Origin: a bacterium
GTDB lineage: Bacteria; AUK180
DNA: 10,249 nucleotides
Assembly: GCA_030622125.1 (NCBI GenBank)
Contig: JAUXGM010000080.1
Span: 1-10,249, forward strand
Reading direction: 5' to 3'
Under the pieces are notes generated by a model, which saw only the letters and a list, made by a program, of their open reading frames with translations, did no database searches and was not told where the DNA came from. A program made the position numbers and the translations under genes. This document shows, in pieces, positions 1 to 10,249 of the stretch (the stretch's first letter is position 1; each line of letters begins with the position of its first letter).

Positions 1-30
1 CCCTACGAATGACTGGTGCTTTTGCATTTT

Positions 31-64
31 AATTCTCAATTCTCAATTGTCAACTCTCAACTAT
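31..64. repeat. 7-bp tandem repeat (AATTCTC-type, about 4.5 units)
   Basis: Four consecutive heptamers can be read directly: AATTCTC, AATTCTC, AATTGTC and AACTCTC, followed by the partial unit AACTA. The first two are identical and the others each differ by one base. It lies in noncoding DNA downstream of tatD, close to the window edge, and may be part of a longer dispersed repeat. Arrays of this type translate to spurious peptides such as NSQFSIVNSQL, so an open frame across it is not a gene. Confidence 0.8.
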
Positions 65-109
65 TTTGTGCTCTGTGGTTAATATTATTATTTAAATACT
101 GGATTTTTC

Positions 110-176
110 TTTCTCTGCGTTCTTTGCGTCTCTGCGGTGAGGTAACTCTGAATGACACGAAAAATATTTTTCTTTT
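110..176 (-). repeat. 67-bp dispersed repeat, copy A (inverted partner at 7427-7493)
   Basis: This segment is the exact reverse complement of 7427-7493 over all 67 bp. Allowing two mismatches, the match extends to 186 (7417 in the partner), which takes in the tatD stop codon. Internally it carries three near-identical octamers, TCTCTGCG, TCTTTGCG and TCTCTGCG (112-119, 121-128, 129-136), and a 14-bp palindrome GAAAAATATTTTTC at 159-172. No coding potential is evident. It begins immediately after tatD, where a transcription terminator would be expected, but no GC-rich hairpin with a T-run is visible. The copies are oriented so that each reads outward in the same order: core, then an AT-rich spacer, then TTAACCACAGA (here 72-82). 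Confidence 0.9.
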
Positions 177-183
177 GTCTGAA

Positions 184-933
184 TCACAGAGCAAACTTTT
201 CCCAATTCCGTGTAAGTATACTATCCATTTCATTAAAAGGAATATTTTTTATCTCGGCAATCTTTTCAATAACATATTTAACATAGAGCGGATGATTTAA
301 TCTCCCTCTAAAAGGCACCGGAGCAAGATAAGGACCATCCGTTTCAGCCATTATTCTATCAACCGGTAGATAATCAACAACATCCCTTACAATGTCTGCT
401 TTTTTAAAGGTGATGATACCTGTAAATGAAATATAATATCCCCTATCAAGAACCTTTCTTGCTTCTTCAACTCCATAAGAAAAACAATGAAAGACAATAT
501 TCTTATGTTTAAAATTGGAAAGTATGCTCATTGTATCATTGAATGCTTCTCTTGAATGGATAATAATAGGTACCTGATGTTTTTCCGCCAGGGAGAGTTG
601 CACCTCAAATATTTCTTTTTGTTTTTTAATTGGGGCAAAGATATTATGATAATCAAGTCCAACCTCCCCAAGCATATTACCATTTTTTAATAATGGTTCC
701 AAACCATTTTCAATGGTTGTGACAGTATCATCTTTGCATTCTTCGGGATGGATGCCGTAGGCAGAATAGATGAAATCATATTTTTTGCTTAGATATTGAA
801 TCTCTTTTATTGATTCCCAATTTATTGAAGGAACAATAACCTTTTCAATATTATTAGTCTTGATCTCATTTACTATATCGTTAAATATCGGAGTATATTC
901 TGCGGAATTAAGATGACAATGAGTATCAATCAT
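184..933 (-). CDS. tatD: TatD family metal-dependent deoxyribonuclease
   Basis: Predicted TatD-type metal-dependent hydrolase with a TIM-barrel fold, 249 residues, a normal length for the family. Seen: the N-terminal metal motif DTHCHL (H5, H7), GIHPE at 60-64, GEVGLDY with E90, HSRE with H126, FHCFS with H149, and ETDGPYLAP with D199 followed by RGRLNHP. All family metal ligands are therefore present. TatD proteins are known as 3'-5' DNA exonucleases implicated in DNA repair and DNA turnover; the precise substrate here is inferred. The ATG at 931-933 was chosen because the protein then begins MIDTHCHL, as the family does; a TTG ten codons upstream only adds an unconserved tail. The start overlaps the end of the upstream methyltransferase by 8 bp, suggesting coupled translation. 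It is the last gene of the operon. Confidence 0.93.
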   Translation of the reverse strand: MIDTHCHLNSAEYTPIFNDIVNEIKTNNIEKVIVPSINWESIKEIQYLSKKYDFIYSAYGIHPEECKDDTVTTIENGLEPLLKNGNMLGEVGLDYHNIFAPIKKQKEIFEVQLSLAEKHQVPIIIHSREAFNDTMSILSNFKHKNIVFHCFSYGVEEARKVLDRGYYISFTGIITFKKADIVRDVVDYLPVDRIMAETDGPYLAPVPFRGRLNHPLYVKYVIEKIAEIKNIPFNEMDSILTRNWEKFAL

Positions 934-1690
934 TACTCTTATTGAGAAAGTAGTTATGAGCAAATATAGAAAAGGATGTCTGCAAATTCAATGAATCAAT
1001 CTTTTTCGTTCCTTCAATGAAAACCCTGTTGTTTACTTTATCAAGAAGGTCTTTGGTGATACCTTTCCCTTCATTCCCAAAGACATAGATTGCCCTTTGC
1101 GGAAATTCAAATCCGGAAAGCGGAATATCCCCTTTTTCAGTAAGAGCAACGAGTTCATGCCCTTGATTGCCTCTTAAGAAATTATCAAGCTCCTTTACAA
1201 TATAAGGAGTTATTGCAAAAACAGCACCCACCGATGATCTAATAACCTTGGGATTAAAAATATCAACGGACTCATAAAGATAAATAGATTGTATCCCGAA
1301 CCATACGGCACTTCTTACAATATTCCCCAAATTGGTCGGATCCTGAGTTTGAAAGAAAAGAAAGGCATTTTCAGAAACCGGGGATACAACTTTTTCAGGT
1401 ATCTTTATCGGAAAGGCACCGATGATCCCCATATTCTTTTTCGTATCGGACAATTCTTTCATATCCTCTGAACTAATGTATACAACAGGAATTGCCTTAT
1501 CCTTTTTTATTTCTTGTATGGTATTTTTGAATTTTTCCTGCATTCTACGATCTACATAAATAAAATTCGGCTCTATCTTTTTTGAAACATCTTTAACGAC
1601 CTTTGGTCCCTCAATTAGTGTCATTTTATGTTCTATACGGAACTTTTTTTCCCTTAATCGACGAGCGTTCTTTATTGATAGCGGTTCCAA
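926..1690 (-). CDS. TrmH/SpoU-family RNA 2'-O-ribose methyltransferase
   Basis: Predicted SPOUT-class, SAM-dependent RNA 2'-O-methyltransferase of 254 residues. An N-terminal substrate-binding region (about 1-95, with LIEGPK at 25-30) precedes the knotted catalytic domain. The three family motifs are visible: N120-LGNIVR126 with the conserved Arg126, FGNEGKGI at 204-211, and IDSLNLQTSFSI at 231-242. Such enzymes methylate 23S rRNA or tRNA riboses; which target applies cannot be told from sequence, so no symbol is given. The start is probably TTG (1688-1690), 2 bp after the lon stop and 6 nt after an AAGGA ribosome binding site; an in-frame TTG at 1723 would overlap lon and lacks that site. 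The 3' end overlaps tatD. Its place after lon suggests cotranscription with the protease genes, not a direct functional link. Confidence 0.9.
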   Translation of the reverse strand: MEPLSIKNARRLREKKFRIEHKMTLIEGPKVVKDVSKKIEPNFIYVDRRMQEKFKNTIQEIKKDKAIPVVYISSEDMKELSDTKKNMGIIGAFPIKIPEKVVSPVSENAFLFFQTQDPTNLGNIVRSAVWFGIQSIYLYESVDIFNPKVIRSSVGAVFAITPYIVKELDNFLRGNQGHELVALTEKGDIPLSGFEFPQRAIYVFGNEGKGITKDLLDKVNNRVFIEGTKKIDSLNLQTSFSIFAHNYFLNKSND

Positions 1691-1692
1691 AA

Positions 1693-4026
1693 TTATTCCT
1701 TCAAGCCAAAAATCTTTTCCCAAACCTGCCAGATGGTTTCTACGGGAATAAGATTCAATTTATTTTTTATTTCTTCGGGAACCTCTTCCAGTGTGTTTAC
1801 ATTTTCTTTTGGAATGAAAATATTTGTTATACCTATTCTCAGTGCTGCAAGTAATTTTTCCTTCAGCCCACCAATAGGAAGTATTCTACCGGTTAATGTT
1901 AATTCGCCGGTCATTGCAAAATTCCATGGTACCTTCTTTTTTAAATATGTTGATATCATAGATGTAGCAATAGTAATTCCAGCCGATGGACCGTCTTTTG
2001 GAATTGCTCCCTCCGGAACATGAATATGGATATCACATTTTTTAAATTTATCAACACCAATCTTCAACTTTTCATGATTTGCTTTTATCAAACTGAGCCC
2101 GATCTGTGCCGATTCCTGCATTACCTTTCCAATCTGTCCCGTGATATTAATATTTCCTTTGCCTGGCAGCAATGCAGATTCTATGGATAATAGAACCCCG
2201 CCATATCTTGTCCATGCAAGTCCGTTAACAACACCAATATTACTTTTCTTTTCAATTATTGATTCCTTATATTCCTGAATACCTAAAAAATTATTTATAT
2301 TTTCTTTTTTTATTTGAAATGGTAATTTTAGGTTTTCTCTTTTTTTATCAACGATCATCGTTGCTATTTTTCTGCATATCTTTCCAATCTGTCTTTCAAG
2401 ATTTCGGACTCCTGCTTCCTGAGTATAATGTTCTATTATTTCCATTATACCATTCTTAAAAAATTTAACATCATTCTTTGTAAGTCCATTCTCCTTTACC
2501 TGTCTTGGTATAAGATAATTATTTGCTATATGATATTTTTCAAGCGTGGTATATCCGGATAAAAAGATGATCTCCATTCTATCTCTTAATGGTTCCGGGA
2601 TTTGAAAAACATTGTTTGCCGTTGTTATAAAGAAAACCTTAGAAAGATCATAATCGACATCCAGATAGTGGTCTTCAAACATATAATTTTGTTCGGGATC
2701 CAATACTTCAAGTAGAGCTGATGCGGGATCACCTCTAAAATCAGATGCAAGTTTATCTATTTCATCCATCAAAAAAACCGGATTCGTTACACCGGCTCGC
2801 TTCATTGTTTGAATGATCTTACCGGGAAGTGCACCGATATATGTCCGTCTATGTCCCCTGATCTCCGCTTCATCTCTTATTCCACCGAGTGAGATCCGGA
2901 CAAATTTTCTGTTCATTGCCCTTGCAATTGATTTTCCGAGTGATGTTTTTCCAACCCCTGGTGGACCGACAAAACAAATTACAGGTCCTTTCTTTAATTT
3001 TGATAATTGTCTAACAGCAAGTATTTCAACTATTCTTTCCTTGATCTTTTTTAATCCCCAATGGTCTTTCTCTAAAATATTCTTTGCAATTCGAAGTTCT
3101 TTTCGCTCTTCATCACTATTTTTCCAGGGTAGAGATGTAAGCCAATTAAGATAATTAAGAATAACAGTATATTCAGGTGAAAAATTCGGAGTATAATCCA
3201 ATTTTTTTACCTCCTTTATTGCTTTTTCCATAGTTTCCTTCGGCATACCTGATTTTTTAACTGTTTCTTTCAGTTCGTCGATCTCACTGGTCCAACCTTC
3301 AAGTTCATTTAATTCTTTTTTTATTGATTCCATCTGTTGGGTCAGGATAATTTTCTTTTGAATACTATCAAGTTTTTTCTTTACATTTCCACGGATCTTA
3401 CTTTGTAATTTTGCAATCTCATATTCATTATTTATAATGAGGAATAATTCATTTAGAAAATTCTTTGTGGTTTGTATCAATAATAATTTTTGCTTGCGTT
3501 TATAGGGAATGGGAAGTTGAAAAGCAATTGTAAAGGCAATCTGAATAGGATCATTTTCTACACGTATTTTCTCAAGAATATCTTCTTCAATAGGATTATT
3601 TCCCGATAATTGTATAAGATTTTCAAATGTCTTGACAATCTCTTTTGCAGTTGCAAAAATATTTTTTGTAATAGTTCCCTGGTATTTATATTCTTCAACT
3701 TCAACCAAAAAATAGGGCTCTCTTTTTTCAAATCTCGTGATCCTTCCACGACTAATACCTGAAACCAAAACCTTCGTAGTGTTGTCAAATTCAGATTTCT
3801 TCTTAATAATTCTGGCAATCACACCGATCGGCTCAATGTCTTTAGAACTTGGATTTTCTATACTTCCGCTTTTCTGTGTAGAAAGAAAAATTAGATTATT
3901 ATTTTTTATTGCTTTTAATGCAAGTATGGACTTGTGTCTTCCAATTAAAAATGGAAAAATAACATTTGGAAATCCGACCATGTCCCTCAGTGGGATAAGA
4001 GGTAATTTGTATGTCTTTTTCTTCAT
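1693..4026 (-). CDS. lon: ATP-dependent protease Lon (LonA type)
   Basis: Full-length 777-residue LonA, close to the 784 residues of the E. coli enzyme. It is a cytosolic homohexameric AAA+ protease that unfolds and degrades damaged and regulatory proteins. Seen in order: the N-terminal substrate-recognition domain beginning KLPLIPLRDMVGFP; a charged helical region at about 200-275; Walker A GPPGVGKT (354-361); Walker B VFLMDEID (417-424); the peptidase motif PKDGPSAG with catalytic Ser681; and GGLKEKLLAA with catalytic Lys724, giving the 43-residue Ser-Lys spacing known in E. coli Lon. No transmembrane segment is seen, so this is not LonB. The ATG overlaps the clpX stop as TAATG and is preceded by AAAAGG about 7 nt upstream, suggesting coupled translation. 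No CIRCE or other stress operator was recognised upstream. Confidence 0.98.
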   Translation of the reverse strand: MKKKTYKLPLIPLRDMVGFPNVIFPFLIGRHKSILALKAIKNNNLIFLSTQKSGSIENPSSKDIEPIGVIARIIKKKSEFDNTTKVLVSGISRGRITRFEKREPYFLVEVEEYKYQGTITKNIFATAKEIVKTFENLIQLSGNNPIEEDILEKIRVENDPIQIAFTIAFQLPIPYKRKQKLLLIQTTKNFLNELFLIINNEYEIAKLQSKIRGNVKKKLDSIQKKIILTQQMESIKKELNELEGWTSEIDELKETVKKSGMPKETMEKAIKEVKKLDYTPNFSPEYTVILNYLNWLTSLPWKNSDEERKELRIAKNILEKDHWGLKKIKERIVEILAVRQLSKLKKGPVICFVGPPGVGKTSLGKSIARAMNRKFVRISLGGIRDEAEIRGHRRTYIGALPGKIIQTMKRAGVTNPVFLMDEIDKLASDFRGDPASALLEVLDPEQNYMFEDHYLDVDYDLSKVFFITTANNVFQIPEPLRDRMEIIFLSGYTTLEKYHIANNYLIPRQVKENGLTKNDVKFFKNGIMEIIEHYTQEAGVRNLERQIGKICRKIATMIVDKKRENLKLPFQIKKENINNFLGIQEYKESIIEKKSNIGVVNGLAWTRYGGVLLSIESALLPGKGNINITGQIGKVMQESAQIGLSLIKANHEKLKIGVDKFKKCDIHIHVPEGAIPKDGPSAGITIATSMISTYLKKKVPWNFAMTGELTLTGRILPIGGLKEKLLAALRIGITNIFIPKENVNTLEEVPEEIKNKLNLIPVETIWQVWEKIFGLKE
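1697..1701 (-). promoter_or_regulatory. ribosome binding site that decides the RNA methyltransferase start
   Basis: AAGGA on the minus strand within the last codons of lon, 6 nt before TTG 1688-1690. It supports a TTG start at 1690 rather than the longer TTG-started frame at 1723, which lies inside lon. Confidence 0.65.
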
Positions 4027-5204
4027 TAATTTACCTTTTTCTTAAGAATAGCGGGTTTTTTCCCTTTCAAAACCACATCTTCCGAAATTATTATCTTTTC
4101 CACATTTGGAATTGAAGGAACTTCATACATCAAGTCAAGAAGCAGGGATTCAACAATACTCTTTAATCCGCGAGCACCCATTTTTTCATCCTTTGCAAGT
4201 GTTGCGATCTCAACAAGTGCTTCATTTGAAAATTGAAGATCTATACCGTCTATCTCGAAGAGCTTTTTGTACTGCAGTACTATTGCGTCTTTCGGCTCTA
4301 TCAATATCTGAACGAGCTGATCTTTTGTAAGTTCGTTAAAACCGACTCTCACGGGAATTCGTCCGACAAGCTCAGGAATAAGACCGTATTTGATCAGATC
4401 ATCCGTTTCTATATTATTTACAAGTTCATTGCTTGATAACTCAGTATCAATATCAGATCGGAATCCGATAACTTTTTTATTCAACCTACTTCCTATTATC
4501 TTTTCTATTCCTGAAAATGATCCACCTAAAACAAATAAAATATTTTTTGTATCCAGCGGAGAATATGGTTGGTATGGAAGTTTTCTTATTGAATTTTGTG
4601 GAACATTCACAATCGTGCCTTCAATGATCTTCAAAAGCGACTGTTGAACACCTTCACCGCCGACATCCCTTGTTATTGAAGGATTTTCACTTTTTCTCGT
4701 TATTTTATCTATCTCATCAATGTATATAATTCCCATCTCTGCATTTTTTACATCACTATTTGCGGCAAGAAGAAGGCGAGCAAGAATATTCTCAACATCT
4801 TCACCAACATAGCCTGCTTCCGTTAAAGTTGTAGCATCTGCAATTGCAAATGGAACATCAATAAACTTTGCTATGGTTTTGGCAAGTAAGGTTTTTCCGG
4901 AGCCTGATGGTCCAAGAAATAGAATATTACTTTTTTCTATCTCAATATCCTCTTTTTTCCTATTATAATTATGGAAAAGACGTTTATAATGATTATATAT
5001 CGCAACAGAAATTATCTTTTTGGGTTTTTCCTGACCTATTACATATTGATCAAGATGTTTTTTGATCTCTTTCGGTTTTGGAAGTTTCATTTCCTTTTTT
5101 TGGTTTTGTAACTTCTCATAACATTCCTTACAGACCAATTTCCCTCTGATGGAAATTAATTCATCTGCTTTGAAACTACGACCACATAGATCACACTTTT
5201 TCAT
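4026..5204 (-). CDS. clpX: ATP-dependent Clp protease ATP-binding subunit ClpX
   Basis: ClpX, 392 residues, is the AAA+ unfoldase that feeds substrates to ClpP. Seen: an N-terminal four-cysteine zinc-binding domain (C4, C7, C25, C28); Walker A GPSGSGKT (98-105); pore-1 loop GYVGED (131-136); Walker B IIYIDEID (159-166); [15 protein letters not shown] (183-197); an IGF loop at 246-248, the ClpP-docking element; arginine finger region ELVGRIPV with R282; and sensor-2 GARGL (343-347). Two things depart from the textbook sequence. The loop that normally reads RKH is RKL (207-209), and the zinc domain resembles a generic CxxC...CxxC ribbon more than a classical ClpX zinc domain. The start overlaps the clpP stop as ATGA, so the two subunits are probably made in coupled fashion. 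The immediate upstream region is A-rich with only a weak ribosome binding site. Confidence 0.97.
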
Positions 5205-5788
5205 TTTTCTTTTCTCGGTAAAAACACTTCATCTATTAGTCCGTAATCTTTTGCTTCTTGTGCCGTCATAAAAAAATCCCTTTCTGTATCTGCTGCAATT
5301 TTTTTGGGATCCTGTCCAGTGTGTTTGACCAAAATATTTATCAATCTTTTTTTTGTTTTTATTATTTCTTCAGCGTGGATCTTTATATCGGTTGCCTGCC
5401 CCTGAATCCCGCCAAGCGGCTGATGAATGAGTACCGTTGAATTAGGTAAAGCATACCTCTTATCTTTTGCACCTGCTGTTAAAATTATTGCAGCCATACT
5501 CGCTGCGCCACCAATACAAACAGTTGCAACATCCGGTTTAATGTATTGAATGGTATCGTAGATAGCAAGACCTGATGTAACATAACCACCCGGTGAATTC
5601 ACATAGAGAAAAATATCCTTCTCTGAATTTTCCATCTCAAGAAAAAGCAACTGAGCGGTTATTGCATTTGCCACCATATCATCAATTGCCGTTCCAAGAA
5701 AAATTATCCTATCTTTGAGTAGCCTTGAATAGATATCATAAGCACGTTCTCCTCCCGGACCTGGTTCAATAACATACGGAATTGTCAT
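5201..5788 (-). CDS. clpP: ATP-dependent Clp protease proteolytic subunit ClpP
   Basis: ClpP serine peptidase, 195 residues. It assembles into a tetradecameric chamber that degrades proteins unfolded by ClpX. The catalytic triad is visible: Ser97 in GGAASMAA, His122 in LIHQPLGG, and Asp171 in [16 protein letters not shown] at 64-73 is the conserved glycine-rich strand. The motif around the serine differs from the usual GQAASMGA in two positions. The ATG at 5786-5788 was chosen because a strong GGAGG lies 5 nt upstream and tig ends 13 bp upstream; an in-frame ATG at 5819-5821 would add 11 lysine-rich residues and overlap tig. No long propeptide is evident. It is followed directly by clpX with a 4-bp overlap, and the IGF loop of that ClpX supports a working ClpXP pair. 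Confidence 0.97.
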
Positions 5789-5793
5789 ATAAT

Positions 5794-5798
5794 CCTCC
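5794..5798 (-). promoter_or_regulatory. ribosome binding site that decides the clpP start
   Basis: GGAGG on the minus strand, 5 nt upstream of the ATG at 5786-5788 and just after the tig stop. It favours this ATG over the in-frame ATG at 5819-5821, which lies inside tig. Confidence 0.8.
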
Positions 5799-5801
5799 AA
5801 T

Positions 5802-7103
5802 TTAGTTTTCTTTTTTTCCATCTTTATTTTCTTTCTCCCTCTTTAATTTTATTTTTTTGATCTTTGCATTTTCGTAAAGTAGATCATCAATTTTTTGAGT
5901 AAGAAGATCGTTCTTTAAATTATTTATGTATTCTTTGTTTGAATCGTAAAAACTCTTAACTCCTTCATGAGAGATGTTGCTTTCTATCGCTATTTTTTTA
6001 TAGGTATTCGTTAGTTCTTCCTCTGTTATCTCCAATTTTTCCTTATCGATGAGATGCCTTCGTATATAGTTCATTTTAATTCCTCTGACAATTTTATCGG
6101 ACATAGATTCTTTTGTAATATTAAATTTTTCCATTCCTACTCCGTAATTTTTCTTGTATTTTTCATCTTCTGCTCTGTATATCTCTTCTTTCATTTGTTC
6201 CAGATAATTTGGCGGCAGTTCAAAGGGATGTCTTTCAATAAGTATATCATATATCTTTTCCAGTGATTCCTGTTTTATTTTAATTTCCGAATTTTTTGTA
6301 ATATTTCCCCGTAATTTTTTGATTACATCTTCTTTTGTTTTACTATCCTTAAATATCTTAGAAAATAATTCTTCATTTTCTTTCGGCATTTTTCTCTTTT
6401 TCAGAGACTCCACCTTGTATGAATATTTTACTGTTTTACCCCTATATTTTTCTCCACCTTCCGAACCGTAAGAGATTGAATATGTATATTCTTTACCTAT
6501 TTCAACTTCCTTTACCTTAGAATAAAATGGTTTCGGATCTTTTTTTTCTGAGTAAATAACTGGGAACTTGTCCATTTTCGTTGGTTTTTCCCCCTCAATT
6601 TCTTCTACATAATCAGCAAGATTTACTAAAACATCCTCTCCAACTTTTCCTTTATAATCCTCCCATGTTGCAAAATTAGTAAGTATATGAGCATACTCAT
6701 TCAAAACATCCTCTTCCTTTTCCTGAAACTTTGCTTCTTCTATCTCTATTCCCTTATGATCATTAATATCAAGGACAGGTAGAAATTCAACTTCATATTT
6801 GCATATACCTTTTTCGAGGTCATATTCCTTTATTGTAAAATGAAGCGGATCTTTTTTTTCTTCCTTGGTGATTTTTTTATATAATCCTTGTAATATTTTT
6901 TTTTGGATATCTTCTTCAATATACTCTTTGTATCTTAAAACAATGATGCCTTCAGGGGCTTTTCCTTTTCTATATCCGGGAATCATTTGCGATTTTTGAA
7001 TATCTTTAATGATTTCGTGTTTTTTAGATTTTACCTCTTCCTGTGTTAATTTTATTTCGTATTCCACCAAATAATCCTTCAGCTTGTTTGAAACATATTC
7101 CAT
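5802..7103 (-). CDS. tig: trigger factor, ribosome-associated chaperone (divergent PPIase domain)
   Basis: Trigger factor of 433 residues, the usual length. The chaperone docks at the ribosomal exit tunnel and shields nascent chains. The ribosome-binding signature is visible as [10 protein letters not shown] (41-50), a conservative variant of GFRxGKxP. After it come the N-terminal domain (to about 115), a region at about 150-235 in the position of the FKBP-type PPIase domain, and a long helical, Lys/Glu-rich C-terminal arm domain (about 240-433). The PPIase region keeps the entry VGEDV (154-158) and the exit [21 protein letters not shown] (220-240), but the usual GSGxFIPGFE active-site segment is not recognisable, so prolyl isomerase activity is doubtful. 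The ATG is preceded by AGGAG 5 nt upstream. It is the first protein gene after the tRNAs, with only 19 bp between. Identification rests on the signature, length, domain order and the clpP-clpX neighbourhood. Confidence 0.92.
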
Positions 7104-7122
7104 AATTACTCCTATGTAAAAA

Positions 7123-7204
7123 TGCGAGAGGTGGGACTTGAACCCACACCCGTCGCCGGACAGGATCCTAAATCCTGCGTGTCTGCCAATTTCACCACCC
7201 TCGC
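7123..7204 (-). tRNA. tRNA-Leu (anticodon TAG)
   Basis: Reading the minus strand, a class II tRNA folds cleanly. The acceptor GCGAGGG pairs with CTCTCGC (one G-U), the anticodon stem is CAGGA/TCCTG with loop TTTAGGA (anticodon TAG, plus-strand positions 7168-7170), the long variable arm forms a CCG/CGG stem, and the T-arm is GTGGG-TTCAAGT-CCCAC. The discriminator is A, as expected for leucine. No 3' CCA is encoded: the gene is followed by TTTTTACATAGG, unlike its two neighbours. It is last of the three tRNAs and 19 bp ahead of tig. Confidence 0.96.
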
Positions 7205-7210
7205 AAAAAG

Positions 7211-7286
7211 TGGTAGGCCTTCAGGGACTCGAACCCTGAACCTACTGATTAAGAGTCAGTTGCTCTACCAATTGAGCTAAAGGCCC
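7211..7286 (-). tRNA. tRNA-Lys (anticodon CTT)
   Basis: On the minus strand the acceptor GGGCCTT pairs with AAGGCCT (terminal G-U), the D-arm is GCTC/GAGC, the anticodon stem is ACTGA/TCAGT with loop CTCTTAA (anticodon CTT, reading AAG), and the T-arm is CAGGG-TTCGAGT-CCCTG. The discriminator is A and the 3' CCA is encoded. It lies 2 bp after tRNA-His and 6 bp before tRNA-Leu, so the three must be processed from one precursor. Confidence 0.97.
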
Positions 7287-7288
7287 AC

Positions 7289-7364
7289 TGGGGTGGATGA
7301 TGGGATTTGAACCCACAACAGTCGGAACCACAATCCGATGCTCTACCATTGAACTACATCCACC
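7289..7364 (-). tRNA. tRNA-His (anticodon GTG)
   Basis: On the minus strand the acceptor GTGGATG pairs perfectly with CATCCAC. The anticodon stem TCGGA/TCCGA carries loop TTGTGGT (anticodon GTG), and the T-arm is GTGGG-TTCAAAT-CCCAT. The family-specific extra G at position -1 is encoded at 7364 and faces discriminator C73. CCA is encoded. It is the first gene of the operon, about 8-9 nt after the predicted transcription start. Confidence 0.97.
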
Positions 7365-7378
7365 ATACATAATTTTAT

Positions 7379-7407
7379 ATTATAGCAAATCTACTTTATT
7401 ATGTCAA
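7379..7407 (-). promoter_or_regulatory. sigma70-type promoter of the tRNA-tig-clpPX-lon operon
   Basis: On the minus strand a perfect -35 TTGACA (7402-7407) and a perfect -10 TATAAT (7379-7384) are separated by the optimal 17 bp. Transcription would start near 7372, just upstream of tRNA-His. Such a strong promoter suits stable RNA genes. No second promoter is evident in the 19 bp between tRNA-Leu and tig, so the protein genes are probably read through from here. Confidence 0.85.
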
Positions 7408-7426
7408 TGTTTTTTTTGATTTAGAT

Positions 7427-7493
7427 AAAAGAAAAATATTTTTCGTGTCATTCAGAGTTACCTCACCGCAGAGACGCAAAGAACGCAGAGAAA
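7427..7493 (+). repeat. 67-bp dispersed repeat, copy B (inverted partner at 110-176)
   Basis: Exact reverse complement of 110-176 over 67 bp, extending to 7417 with two mismatches. It contains the palindrome GAAAAATATTTTTC (7431-7444) and the motif CTCACCGCAGAGACGC (7462-7477). It begins about 20 bp upstream of the -35 box of the tRNA operon. As in copy A, an AT-rich spacer (48 bp here, 27 bp there) and then TTAACCACAGA (7542-7552) follow on the far side. Confidence 0.9.
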
Positions 7494-7549
7494 AAGGTAA
7501 TAAGGGAATAAGTAGATATGGAAATAAGGAAAGAAAATATTTTAACCAC

Positions 7550-7576
7550 AGATTAGACGGATTAAACGGATTAAAA
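7550..7576. repeat. 9-bp imperfect tandem repeat (GGATTAAAC-type, three units)
   Basis: Three consecutive nonamers: AGATTAGAC, GGATTAAAC and GGATTAAAA. It directly follows the TTAACCACAG motif that also accompanies the other copy of the 67-bp repeat, so it is probably part of the same composite intergenic repeat family. Noncoding. Confidence 0.7.
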
Positions 7577-7594
7577 ATAATAATTTTTTTTACT

Positions 7595-7661
7595 AAAGGT
7601 AAAAATGTTTAATGTAGAAGATTGAAATTCGCATCTTCTACCTCTTAATTTATTTACCTTT
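7595..7661. repeat. nested inverted repeat (outer and inner 9-bp stems)
   Basis: The outer arms AAAGGTAAA (7595-7603) and TTTACCTTT (7653-7661) are perfectly complementary. They enclose a second perfect pair, GTAGAAGAT (7614-7622) and ATCTTCTAC (7633-7641), with a 10-nt loop. A transcript of either strand could fold into one two-part hairpin. The function is unknown. It is not followed by a T-run as a terminator on either strand would be. Confidence 0.6.
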
Positions 7662-7663
7662 TT

Positions 7664-7687
7664 AAAGATGAAACTTATTTCATCTTT
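7664..7687. repeat. 10-bp inverted repeat with 4-nt loop
   Basis: AAAGATGAAA (7664-7673) and TTTCATCTTT (7678-7687) are perfect complements around the loop CTTA. It starts 2 bp after the nested hairpin and ends 2 bp before the next one. It could act as a weak terminator or as part of a structured RNA, but AT-richness and lack of a clean T-tract leave this open. Confidence 0.6.
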
Positions 7688-7689
7688 TA

Positions 7690-7710
7690 TCTCAATCTTT
7701 CTGATTGAGG
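7690..7710. repeat. 7-8-bp inverted repeat, third stem-loop of the cluster
   Basis: CTCAATC (7691-7697) and GATTGAG (7703-7709) pair around the loop TTTCT, with an additional T-G pair outside. On the plus strand it is followed by an A-run rather than a T-run. It completes a run of consecutive stems spanning 7595-7710. Confidence 0.55.
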
Positions 7711-7751
7711 AAAAAAATTATTGAAAACAGAAAAATATCGCATTAAATAAT

Positions 7752-7780
7752 TTGATTTTTGACGTTAAATATATTATAAT
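7752..7780 (+). promoter_or_regulatory. candidate sigma70-type promoter for the restriction gene
   Basis: TTGATT (7752-7757), a 17-bp spacer and a perfect TATAAT (7775-7780). The predicted start is near 7787, giving a leader of about 220 nt before the restriction gene at 8010 and coinciding with the ATG of a possible 30-codon ORF. A second TATAAT at 8002-8007 abuts the gene start but has no well-placed -35 box. Confidence 0.6.
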
Positions 7781-7787
7781 CAAGCAA

Positions 7788-7880
7788 ATGAAAAAGTATG
7801 AAATCAAAATAACAAAAGGGCAAAGTTGGAAGATAATAAGCCCTTTGGATAAAATGGAAAAGGAAAGGGAGAATAAGTGA
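7788..7880 (+). CDS. possible leaderless small ORF, 30 codons, unrecognised
   Basis: The ATG at 7788 opens a 30-codon frame ending TGA at 7880, beginning MKKYEIKITKGQSWKI and ending in a charged KMEKERENK tail. No ribosome binding site precedes it, but the predicted transcription start lies at or next to the ATG, so leaderless translation is conceivable. It is highly charged (many K and E), has no membrane segment, and I recognise no family. It could be a leader peptide, the relic of a displaced gene, or chance; in AT-rich DNA the last is quite possible. Confidence 0.25.
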   Translation: MKKYEIKITKGQSWKIISPLDKMEKERENK

Positions 7881-7894
7881 ATAGATTTGCGATG

Positions 7895-7913
7895 TATCCG
7901 AACCATTCGGATA
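7895..7913 (+). repeat. 8-bp hairpin in the leader of the restriction gene
   Basis: TATCCGAA (7895-7902) and TTCGGATA (7906-7913) are perfect complements with the loop CCA; a G-T pair and a T-A pair extend the stem to 10 bp. It sits about 100 nt upstream of the restriction gene, with no T-run after it, so a terminator is unlikely. Confidence 0.55.
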
Positions 7914-8009
7914 TACAATGTTAGGTGAAAGACTTTGCCCCATCTTTTTTTAGGAGTAGTGTAGACCATTCATGGTTAGCTTTGAGAAATGGTTATAGGG
8001 ATATAATAA

Positions 8010-10249
8010 ATGAACATTAAAGAAAATGCAAAAAAAGAAATTGCAAAACTTGTTGATTATTTTCAATCTAATTACGAATCATTTATGCAAAAATCTGGTG
8101 ATGAGGGTGAAAGAGAAATTGAAGAATATTTAATAACACCTTTTTTTAAAGCTCTTGGTTGGTTCGATAATTATCCTGAAACATCCGTAGAGTTGAGAGA
8201 TGTAAAATTTCAAGAAAGCATTTCATTAAAGCGAGGACTTTCAAGAGGTGGAAAAGGGACAAAAAAAGTTGATTATGCCTTTAGAATAAATGGAGTTAAT
8301 CAATTTTTTATTGAAGCAAAAATACCAAGTAGAGATTTGAGACCAAAAGTAGGGAATAAAATTTCACAGGACACGATTGAAAGCATCTGGCAAGCTAAAA
8401 CCTATAGCTGGAGTAAAGATGTTCCGATTGTAATTTTAACAGATTTTGAAGAATTTCGGGTTTTTAATACAATAAAAAAACCAAACAAGAAAAGATATTT
8501 TGATCAAGTCATAGATGTACTGGATATCAATTATACTGATTATTTAGATAAATTTGATTTAATATGGGATACATTTTCAAAAGAAGCTGTAGAAAATGGT
8601 TCTTTAGAAAAATATCAAGAAAGCTCAGAATTTATTACACGACAAACAATTGATGAAGCTCTTCTTGAAACTATCGACAATTGGAGAAAAAAATTAGCTG
8701 AGAATATTATATATAACATTAAAAAGAACAACAGTAATTTCCCAGCAAGTAATGAATTGACCAATATTGTACAAACTATTATCGATCGAATTTTATTTAT
8801 TCGATTTTTAGAGGACAATGGAATTGAACAAACAATTATATTAAAAAAATATCTTAAACCTCAATATAATTCAAAAGTTATCTATTCAGAAATAGTCAAA
8901 GATTTTGAAAGTTTAGCCCCATATTACAATGGATCAATATTTGGAACAAATAACAATTCACATCCGGCAAATAGTGTAATAATTAGTAACATTACAATAA
9001 AAAACATTTTATCCGAATTATATGACGATTCCCCTTATGATTTTTCAGTTATACCAATAGATATAATTGGTAGAATCTATGAAAGATTTTTAGGTAAAAT
9101 TATTACTGTTACAAATAAAGGTGGCTTTTCAATTGAACATAAAGAAGATATAAGAAAAGCGGGAGGTATATTTTATACTCCAAAGTTTGTAGTTGAATAC
9201 ATTGTTGAAAAAACAGTAGGAAAACTAATTAAAAATAAAAACCCTAGAGATATTAGTAAAATCAAAATATTAGATCCAGCATGTGGTAGCGGCTCGTTTT
9301 TACTTGGAGCCTTTGAAAGAATAATAAAGGAACATGAAAAATATTATTATAAAGAATATCAGAAAGGCAAGCTTGCTGGAAAGGACAAAGATTGGTTAAT
9401 TGTTAAAGATAAAAATGAAGAGATGGTGAAAATAACAGTCAAAAAAAAGAAAGATATATTATTAAACAATATTTACGGTGTTGACTTAGATAAACAAGCC
9501 GTAGAAGTAGCTCAAATGAGTCTCTATTTAAAATTATTAGAAGATGAGACCTTTGAGGTAAAGCAACCAACACTTCAGGGCATGAAAACTACTGTTTTAC
9601 CAGATCTTAATAATAACATAATTTCAGGCAATTCTTTAATTGGCACAAATATTGGGTTTCTTTCAACAGGGAATATTATTAAAATAAATCCTAAAAATTA
9701 TGAAGATTTATTTTCTTTTTTTACTGGAGAAAAATTTCATGCAGTTATTGGAAATCCTCCATATTTAAATATTGATGATACATGGGGTCAAAAAGATATA
9801 AGATTGCAATACATTAAAGATAATTATTCAGAAGTCTATAATGATAAAACTGACATATTATTCTATTTTCTAAATAAAGCTGTAACTCTTTCACAAGATT
9901 ATACTGGTTTCATTGTTTCAAGAGCATTTCTTGAAGCATATAAAGCAAATAAACTAAGGAAATGGTTATCAGAAAACACGTATGTGATTGAGCTGATCGA
10001 TTTCAGAAATCATTATATTTTTAAAGGAGTTGGAATCACTACTTGTATTTTGATTTTAAAAAATAAAAGCAGAAAAAAAGAATCCATAATCTATAAAAAA
10101 AATGATACAAAAGTAATATTAAATAATTTGAATATACAACTACCACAATCAAAATATTTTGATAAAATCAACATACCAAGTACATCATTTGGTGAAGATA
10201 TCTGGTCATTTTCAGAAAAGAATACACAAGTCATATTAAATAAAATTGA
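8010..10249 (+). CDS. Type IIG-like restriction-modification protein, N-terminal 746 residues (partial)
   Basis: A frame open from the ATG at 8010 to the window edge, with no stop in 746 codons. The residues at about 30-170 resemble the HsdR N-terminal nuclease fold, with VDYAF (D88) and FFIEAK (E102, K104) as the likely PD-(D/E)xK site. A helical linker follows. Then come the N6-adenine methyltransferase motifs: GGIFYTP (385-391, motif X), ILDPACGSGSF (420-430, SAM binding), GVDLDKQAVEVA (490-501) and NPPY (582-585, catalytic). The region after 600 would lead into a TaqI/Eco57I-like target recognition domain, which is missing here because the window ends. Fusion of cleavage and methylation in one chain is the Type IIG arrangement: modification and restriction of the same recognition sequence, with specificity unknown. 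AGGG lies 9 nt upstream of the ATG. The gene is visibly more AT-rich than the operon and on the opposite strand, consistent with horizontal acquisition. A solitary methylase in a larger phage-defence locus cannot be excluded. Confidence 0.88.
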   Translation, partial: MNIKENAKKEIAKLVDYFQSNYESFMQKSGDEGEREIEEYLITPFFKALGWFDNYPETSVELRDVKFQESISLKRGLSRGGKGTKKVDYAFRINGVNQFFIEAKIPSRDLRPKVGNKISQDTIESIWQAKTYSWSKDVPIVILTDFEEFRVFNTIKKPNKKRYFDQVIDVLDINYTDYLDKFDLIWDTFSKEAVENGSLEKYQESSEFITRQTIDEALLETIDNWRKKLAENIIYNIKKNNSNFPASNELTNIVQTIIDRILFIRFLEDNGIEQTIILKKYLKPQYNSKVIYSEIVKDFESLAPYYNGSIFGTNNNSHPANSVIISNITIKNILSELYDDSPYDFSVIPIDIIGRIYERFLGKIITVTNKGGFSIEHKEDIRKAGGIFYTPKFVVEYIVEKTVGKLIKNKNPRDISKIKILDPACGSGSFLLGAFERIIKEHEKYYYKEYQKGKLAGKDKDWLIVKDKNEEMVKITVKKKKDILLNNIYGVDLDKQAVEVAQMSLYLKLLEDETFEVKQPTLQGMKTTVLPDLNNNIISGNSLIGTNIGFLSTGNIIKINPKNYEDLFSFFTGEKFHAVIGNPPYLNIDDTWGQKDIRLQYIKDNYSEVYNDKTDILFYFLNKAVTLSQDYTGFIVSRAFLEAYKANKLRKWLSENTYVIELIDFRNHYIFKGVGITTCILILKNKSRKKESIIYKKNDTKVILNNLNIQLPQSKYFDKINIPSTSFGEDIWSFSEKNTQVILNKI

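Follow-up and report, generated by a model that had tools for sequence, protein, structure and literature searches.

The DNA analyzed here (the window) is a 10,249-nucleotide (nt) stretch from a bacterium of the AUK180 lineage (GenBank assembly GCA_030622125.1, contig JAUXGM010000080.1, positions 1 to 10,249 of the forward strand), in which an operon of tRNA, chaperone, and protease genes is flanked by two inverted copies of a noncoding repeat. The two copies are solo, non-autonomous dispersed repeats that lie on either side of a conserved operon, not a functional bracket around it. Probably, they are solo arms belonging to a mini-element system of REPIN/RAYT-like type, whose central enzyme would be a Cas4-like nuclease, the GxxExxY protein.

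Dispersed repeats on either side of a conserved operon

A repeat search of the window identified inverted arms at 110-186 and 7417-7493, which are 77 nt long, 97% complementary, and 7230 nt apart; the runner-up inverted pair was 33 nt at 76%. Read directly, 110-176 and 7427-7493 form a perfect inverted match of 67 nt. The chance expectation for an exact match of this length in 10 kb is far below 1e-25, so a chance origin is negligible. The original prediction had described perfect 67-bp inverted repeats, with copy A at the tatD stop codon and copy B about 20 bp upstream of the -35 box of the operon promoter. All three points were borne out: the match extends to 186/7417 (77 nt, 97% identity), the stop codon (184-186) falls inside the 77-nt match, and the distance from copy B to the -35 box is 19 bp for the 67-nt version and 9 bp for the 77-nt version.

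The repeat unit is widespread in the source genome. A search of the 192-contig, 96%-complete metagenome-assembled genome (MAG), using window positions 100-190 as the query, gave ~26 matches at E ≤ 6e-4, spread over 20 contigs (cited below by C numbers); the original prediction had envisaged such a genome-wide search, and gene-end positions were recorded for the matches. The copies are mosaic. Modules occur singly or joined, and the commonest order, B-A-C, is present at both window copies, at C82, and at C8. Module A consists of TCACCGCAGAGACGCAAAGAACGCAGAG (iterated CRCNRAG units) and a purine tail, and is a non-palindromic array; module B is a partly palindromic 43-mer, found without module A at C184:4430-4472 and C115:6089-6130; and module C is AACCACAGATTAGACGGATT-like. 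The module C stretch at 7539-7727 is 94% identical to C82:17840-18031, where the order B-A-C recurs, and the 77-nt identity of the window pair stops at the onset of differing C-type units. The pair is divergent around the operon, with module A at 109-140 on the minus strand and at 7463-7493 on the plus strand. Most arm copies in this genome are single, not doublets. Further modules also join the repeat mosaics (GTCATTCTGAG..GAAGAATC; GTCATTCCTG..CAGGAATCC), and many contigs end within these repeats (e.g., C118, C180, C12, and C190).

The module A copies on the 20 contigs are all intergenic save two, both of which lie in short dubious open reading frames (ORFs). Their flanking gene ends include 5'/5', 5'/3', 3'/5', and 3'/3' arrangements, and the C46 copy lies between two co-oriented genes. 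Because every gene-end context is represented, there is no boundary preference beyond location in non-coding DNA. The proposal that the repeats are a mobile noncoding element preferring operon boundaries is therefore supported in part: the repeat is noncoding and dispersed, and a mobile element is its probable source, but the boundary preference is not supported.

The pair is also no part of the operon. The order tRNA(His-Lys-Leu)-tig-clpP-clpX-lon-trmH-tatD is kept in four family relatives (three other genera). No repeat was found upstream of tRNA-His in any of the four, over the promoter-to-upstream region shown, and no arms followed tatD in three of them; in the fourth (G002), unrelated arms of the same class lie ~250 bp beyond tatD. 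As these relatives lack the window pair, we conclude that it is lineage specific and does not bracket the operon in the sense originally suggested. The gene order suggests that the enclosed segment may be exactly one transcription unit, and only one sigma-70-like promoter scores 12/12 on the minus strand, its -35 box lying at 7407-7402 and its -10 box at 7384-7379.

Much about the pair would suit a role in inverting or insulating the protease/chaperone operon, as a recombination switch or some other functional bracket: the perfect identity over 67 bp, the exact placement at both operon ends, the 9 to 19 bp between copy B and the -35 box, and the fact that the two copies are closer to one another (97%) than to the next-best copy, at C150 (89%). 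Homologous recombination between 67 identical bp could also, in physical terms, invert the segment. We nevertheless consider such a role highly improbable, since the pair is missing around the same operon in four relatives, no recombinase ORF was recognized in the window, and ~24 further matches lie in unrelated contexts; moreover, with the promoter inside the bracket, an inverted operon would keep its own promoter, and nothing obvious would be switched.

A second tatD 3' end is present at C66:3399-3557 (L046), 99% identical over 137 bp, with a different repeat mosaic upstream. It suggests that the copy A site is variable between strains, subject to the caveat of strain mixture or mixed binning in the MAG. 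It was rejected as proof of inversion, as the C66 flank matches neither orientation of the window flanks. The pair itself might have arisen by segmental duplication or gene conversion, or might be an assembly or binning artifact of a fragmented MAG. Consistent with this, the assembly comprises 192 contigs, many of them ending in repeats, the C66 sequence points to strain mixture, and gene conversion could account for the 97% identity of the pair. Both copies, however, are placed within a single contig and bordered by unique sequence, and the members of the family on 20 contigs have independent flanks and diverge by degrees; we regard this origin as very improbable.

Convergent arms at GxxExxY loci

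The source genome contains a single GxxExxY gene (PF13366/TIGR04256, 153 bits), which is flanked by module A arms in convergent orientation (C46:11835-11862 and 12270-12297), each 15-40 bp from the gene. The whole unit is situated between two co-oriented genes, which we read as an ABC-transporter permease and ATPase. The window copies enclose no GxxExxY gene.

Two sets of loci established that this linkage extends across phyla. The first comprised 80 GxxExxY loci from at least 14 phyla, as judged by record title, 76 of which were testable; they were found with one conserved peptide. An inverted arm pair with an alignment score of at least 30 was present at 57/76 of these loci, versus 134/760 mismatched flank pairs, in which upstream and downstream flanks of different loci were paired, and 1/49 flanks 1 kb farther out. 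The mismatched rate is high because all arms in this set share CACAGAG, the search having used one conserved peptide. The second set, 94 loci from many families drawn by profile search alone, has more diverse arms; inverted arms at a score of at least 34 were found at 56/94 loci versus 57/1880 mismatched pairs (3%). The layout is convergent, with the ACC ends outermost, at 45 of the 48 GxxExxY loci that could be oriented, and the median length of the unit is 541 nt. One complete genome contains six GxxExxY copies in 41 kb (G152:C1:786477-827837), of which those at 799691 and 800163 are almost side by side. Matches were found in 8 of 72,556 plasmid records and in none of 50,697 phage records, so that by record counts no phage or plasmid carrier stands out.

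The operon as the cargo of an element was rejected: the ACC ends face the operon here, in contrast to their outermost position at GxxExxY loci, and the relatives lack the pair. No transposase was found inside the bracketed segment.

Across loci, an arm typically comprises some three CRCNRAK-type units at a spacing of 8 to 10 nt. Their letters vary widely (CACAGAG, CGCAGATT, CACGAAG, ACGGGATGG, ACGAGACTT, and others), but within a locus the left arm matches the right one. Arm similarity covaries with GxxExxY protein similarity across different genomes (Mantel Spearman r = 0.245, p = 0.0005; 0/2000 permutations as high), a result unchanged after GC correction, and the mean arm cosine increases from 0.06 to 0.37 with rising protein similarity. 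Arms and gene also co-occur. Using a strict CAGAG-type arm pattern, with the reversed pattern, which was almost absent, as the control, at least three arm matches were found in 33/62 gene-positive versus 6/228 gene-negative genomes (odds ratio 42, Fisher p = 2e-20; the genomes are mostly one per genus, and the statistic ignores kinship). Total arms numbered 898 in gene-positive and 90 in gene-negative genomes. Among the matches listed, 6/7 neighboring arms within 200 bp were convergent (binomial p = 0.0013).

The only precedent that we found for such arms is in Geobacter metallireducens, which has 21 paired class 2 sites; paired sites lie at a variable distance on opposite strands, and each is made up of three TCTCCGTS(Y) units in tandem. 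They were read as putative IHF/HU global-regulator sites and described as confined to that genome (Aklujkar et al. 2009, PMC2700814). Matched by published consensus, they resemble GxxExxY arms in unit type (the complement of CACGGAGA), three-unit number, opposite-strand pairing, multiple copies, and intergenic location, and differ in being described from one species, in the IHF/HU reading, and in having no gene link. On this comparison the class 2 sites are, in all likelihood, the same kind of object as GxxExxY arms. The repeats could thus instead be binding sites of a nucleoid or global regulator of the IHF/HU type, a reading that has this published example behind it and that accords with the resemblance of iterated units to protein-binding iterons. 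However, the units are completely different from one genome to another and among the loci of a single genome, yet those on the two sides of one GxxExxY gene match, and they covary with the protein, a pattern that a conserved host protein would not explain; in addition, their patchy presence tracks GxxExxY, and relatives lack them at the orthologous operon. We therefore judge regulator binding to be quite unlikely.

The features of the window are collected in Table 1. The three tRNAs were the sole matches to curated RNA families in an Rfam search of the window. A long ORF at 8010-10249, cut by the window end, resembles PglX/type IIG-like adenine DNA methyltransferases (NF033452, below cut-off).

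Table 1. Repeat modules, genes, and promoter in the 10,249-nt window
Feature	Position	Strand	Details
Repeat copy A	110..186	-	77 nt; 67 nt perfect at 110-176; read on the minus strand, module A follows module B
Module A of copy A	109..140	-	TCACCGCAGAGACGCAAAGAACGCAGAGAAAG; CRCNRAG unit iterated three times; belongs to the class of GxxExxY-element arms
Module B of copy A	146..188	-	TGTGATTCAGACAAAAGAAAAATATTTTTCGTGTCATTCAGAG; partly palindromic; contains tatD stop codon 184-186
Repeat copy B	7417..7493	+	77 nt; 67 nt perfect at 7427-7493
Module B of copy B	7417..7457	+	Module alignment
Module A of copy B	7463..7493	+	Module alignment
Module C (AACCACAGATTAGACGGATTAAACGGATT, arm-like iterated unit) and hairpin tail	7539..7736	+	Just outside copy B
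Start of second arm-like unit AACCACAGAGC	72..82	-	After module A of copy A, as in C190
7-nt-period array AATTCTCAATTCTCAATTGTCAACTCTCAAC	31..61	-	Same class as arms of S23 gene element at C184:7447-7761
Enclosed genes	184..7363	-	tRNA-His/Lys/Leu 7122-7363; tig 5802-7103; clpP 5201-5821; clpX 4026-5204
Enclosed genes, continued	184..4026	-	lon 1693-4026; TrmH/RlmB-like methyltransferase 926-1723; tatD 184-963
Consensus promoter TTGACA-17-TATAAT of tRNA-tig operon	7379..7407	-	Just inside copy B

The GxxExxY protein and proposed movement of the arms

Five residues, D63, E73, K75, Q87, and Y91, are invariant across 24 diverse GxxExxY proteins; D63/E73/K75 together with Q87/Y91 correspond to the PD-(D/E)XK and QxxxY motifs of Cas4/RecB nucleases. 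The AlphaFold model of the protein has a predicted local distance difference test (pLDDT) score of 94. A Foldseek search gave SSO0001 (4ic1), a Cas4 nuclease, as the best solved fold match (probability 1.00, E = 2e-3), followed by lambda-type exonucleases, and a PDB sequence search returned no solved relative. Judged by motifs and model, the GxxExxY protein is a predicted PD-(D/E)XK nuclease of the Cas4/RecB type.

The complete form of the mini-element consists of convergent arms around one small gene, GxxExxY, in a unit of ~0.5 kb between host genes. In the mechanism that we consider most probable, the nuclease would recognize its cognate arms and cut or nick the DNA at them, the likeliest target being a hairpin or cruciform formed by two arms. 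This would cause the whole unit, or copies consisting of arms alone (acting in trans), to be copied to further intergenic positions; a comparable role in the spread of REPINs has been proposed for RAYT transposases. We infer that the GxxExxY nuclease is the mobilizing enzyme, that the hairpin is its substrate, and that the window copies originated in this way.

A site with and without a unit was found among the Bacteroides and their relatives. In Bacteroides finegoldii, radA and an FAD-dependent gene are separated by a complete unit, which has TTCACCACAGAGGACGCAGAGGACACGGAG as its arm on either side and lies within ~1 bp of the radA stop codon; in Parabacteroides distasonis the same two genes are 13 bp apart with no unit between them, and in Phocaeicola massiliensis a different gene is found at the corresponding place. 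A viral-contig scan for the Bacteroides FAD gene returned nothing. In the genus of G053, two genomes have a GxxExxY unit and two others a decayed 3' remnant; these were rejected as a clean empty site, the remnant being a sign of loss. The differences in solo arms that distinguish G053 from G060 fall within disordered heptad arrays and yield no clean junction, and a genus search around G072 gave no orthologous site. No clean empty site emerged within a single species.

Two other kinds of gene in the same genomes were considered as partners of the arms. The source genome has four RAYT genes (Y1_Tnp, PF01797), which are flanked by the inverted repeat GGGGACGGTGGT and not by module A, and RAYT was rejected as the partner enzyme of module A in this genome on the grounds of that different repeat. 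RAYT control loci had inverted arms in 2/27 cases, with no excess. Three RAYT genes (L050, L051, and L052) are bracketed by GGGGACGGTGGT...ACCACCGTCCCC, with apparently full insertion boundaries, inside or between host genes. S23 genes (23S rRNA IVP; L164-L193; C184:7447-7761 in L039) lie inside inverted iterated arms with a 7-nt period, which at a score of at least 34 were found at 15/25 loci versus 3/250 mismatched and 0/25 displaced controls. S23 was likewise rejected as the module A partner, its arms having a 7-nt unit and just 1 of 12 S23-positive, GxxExxY-negative genomes being arm rich (60-genome set). The S23 units are the intergenic counterpart of 23S rRNA intervening sequence (IVS) elements and are distinct from GxxExxY arms.

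The arms might also be moved by another enzyme or process (e.g., RAYT, host recombination, or template slippage), in which case GxxExxY would be a passenger, able to tolerate or domesticate its insertion between the arms. The S23 genes within analogous 7-nt arms (15/25) show that different small genes fill similar frames, and RAYT genes are common in the same genomes. Yet the RAYT genes of the source genome have their own repeat, RAYT loci have no excess of arms, the class of arm follows the gene (CRCNRAG with GxxExxY, heptads with S23), and the arms covary with the GxxExxY protein; a passenger role is thus unlikely, if less so than regulator binding.

Several observations weigh against mobilization of the arms by the GxxExxY nuclease. 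Convincing arms were lacking at 38 of the 94 profile-drawn GxxExxY genes, and six genomes have many arms yet no GxxExxY gene at E ≤ 1e-20. The Bacteroides/Parabacteroides pair of occupied and unoccupied sites spans two families, no insertion with a defined target duplication was found between near-identical genomes, and the comparison within the cyanobacterium-like genus revealed loss, not gain. The Foldseek E values are weak (best, 2e-3), and module B has no known partner gene. Finally, the S23 arrangement with 7-nt arms is parallel, and arms therefore need not depend on the GxxExxY nuclease. With these points taken into account, we still favor the reading of the window copies as solo arms of the GxxExxY system.

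Comparison with known systems and significance

Heptad intergenic repeats are familiar from cyanobacteria as short tandemly repeated repetitive (STRR) sequences, which form direct arrays and are read as regulatory. The TAACTGA repeats of the Beggiatoaceae (PMC4679880) resemble the arms in being short tandem units at many intergenic sites, and differ in their 7-nt unit, their direct arrays, and their reading as regulatory, with no link to S23 or GxxExxY reported. In the Coxiella IVS, a known relative of the S23 units, an S23p ORF lies inside a 28-bp inverted stem (PMC4990558). Such 23S rRNA elements share with GxxExxY units a small ORF in inverted terminal arms and a patchy distribution, and are regarded as selfish (PMC4990558); S23, however, forms a four-helix bundle, and the classic IVS is embedded in 23S rRNA, whereas GxxExxY units are intergenic.

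The nearest model is provided by REPIN/RAYT systems (PMC3116915, PMC2817692), which likewise have many extragenic non-autonomous repeats and one or a few enzyme genes flanked by these repeats. The inverted doublets of REPINs may have a counterpart in the convergent neighboring arms among the matches listed (6/7), although most copies in the source genome are single. Their enzyme is a Y1 HUH tyrosine transposase, whereas that of the arm system is of the PD-(D/E)XK (Cas4/RecB-like) type; and repetitive extragenic palindromic (REP) sequences are palindromic, whereas module A is built of iterated 8- to 10-nt units without a palindrome and only module B is partly palindromic. The window repeats are thus outside the REPIN/RAYT class, with which they agree in extragenic location but not in enzyme family or palindromic structure. 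By analogy, the arm system may plausibly work in a REPIN/RAYT-like manner.

No prior link of this repeat class to GxxExxY was found in the open literature searched (Creative Commons-licensed PMC papers; a description elsewhere is possible). The window pair appears ordinary as dispersed repeats go, and it is the class and its tie to GxxExxY that appear undescribed in that literature. We tentatively suggest that GxxExxY proteins could be the enzymes of undescribed, very small autonomous elements, ~0.5 kb long, present in many phyla, chromosome bound, and feeding populations of gene-less arms, with the S23/heptad arms as a second, parallel class.

For the window, the lesson is that a striking perfect inverted repeat at the ends of an operon is explained by dispersed repeats settling in non-coding DNA. 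Environmental genomes commonly contain CACAGAG/CGCAGAG-type intergenic repeats, for which the sole explanation in the searched literature is the IHF/HU guess in one species. Their link to a named but function-less family (TIGR04256/PF13366) makes the nuclease role and the spread of the repeats testable together. If the nuclease mobilizes its arms, these units would be self-propagating elements without a classical transposase.

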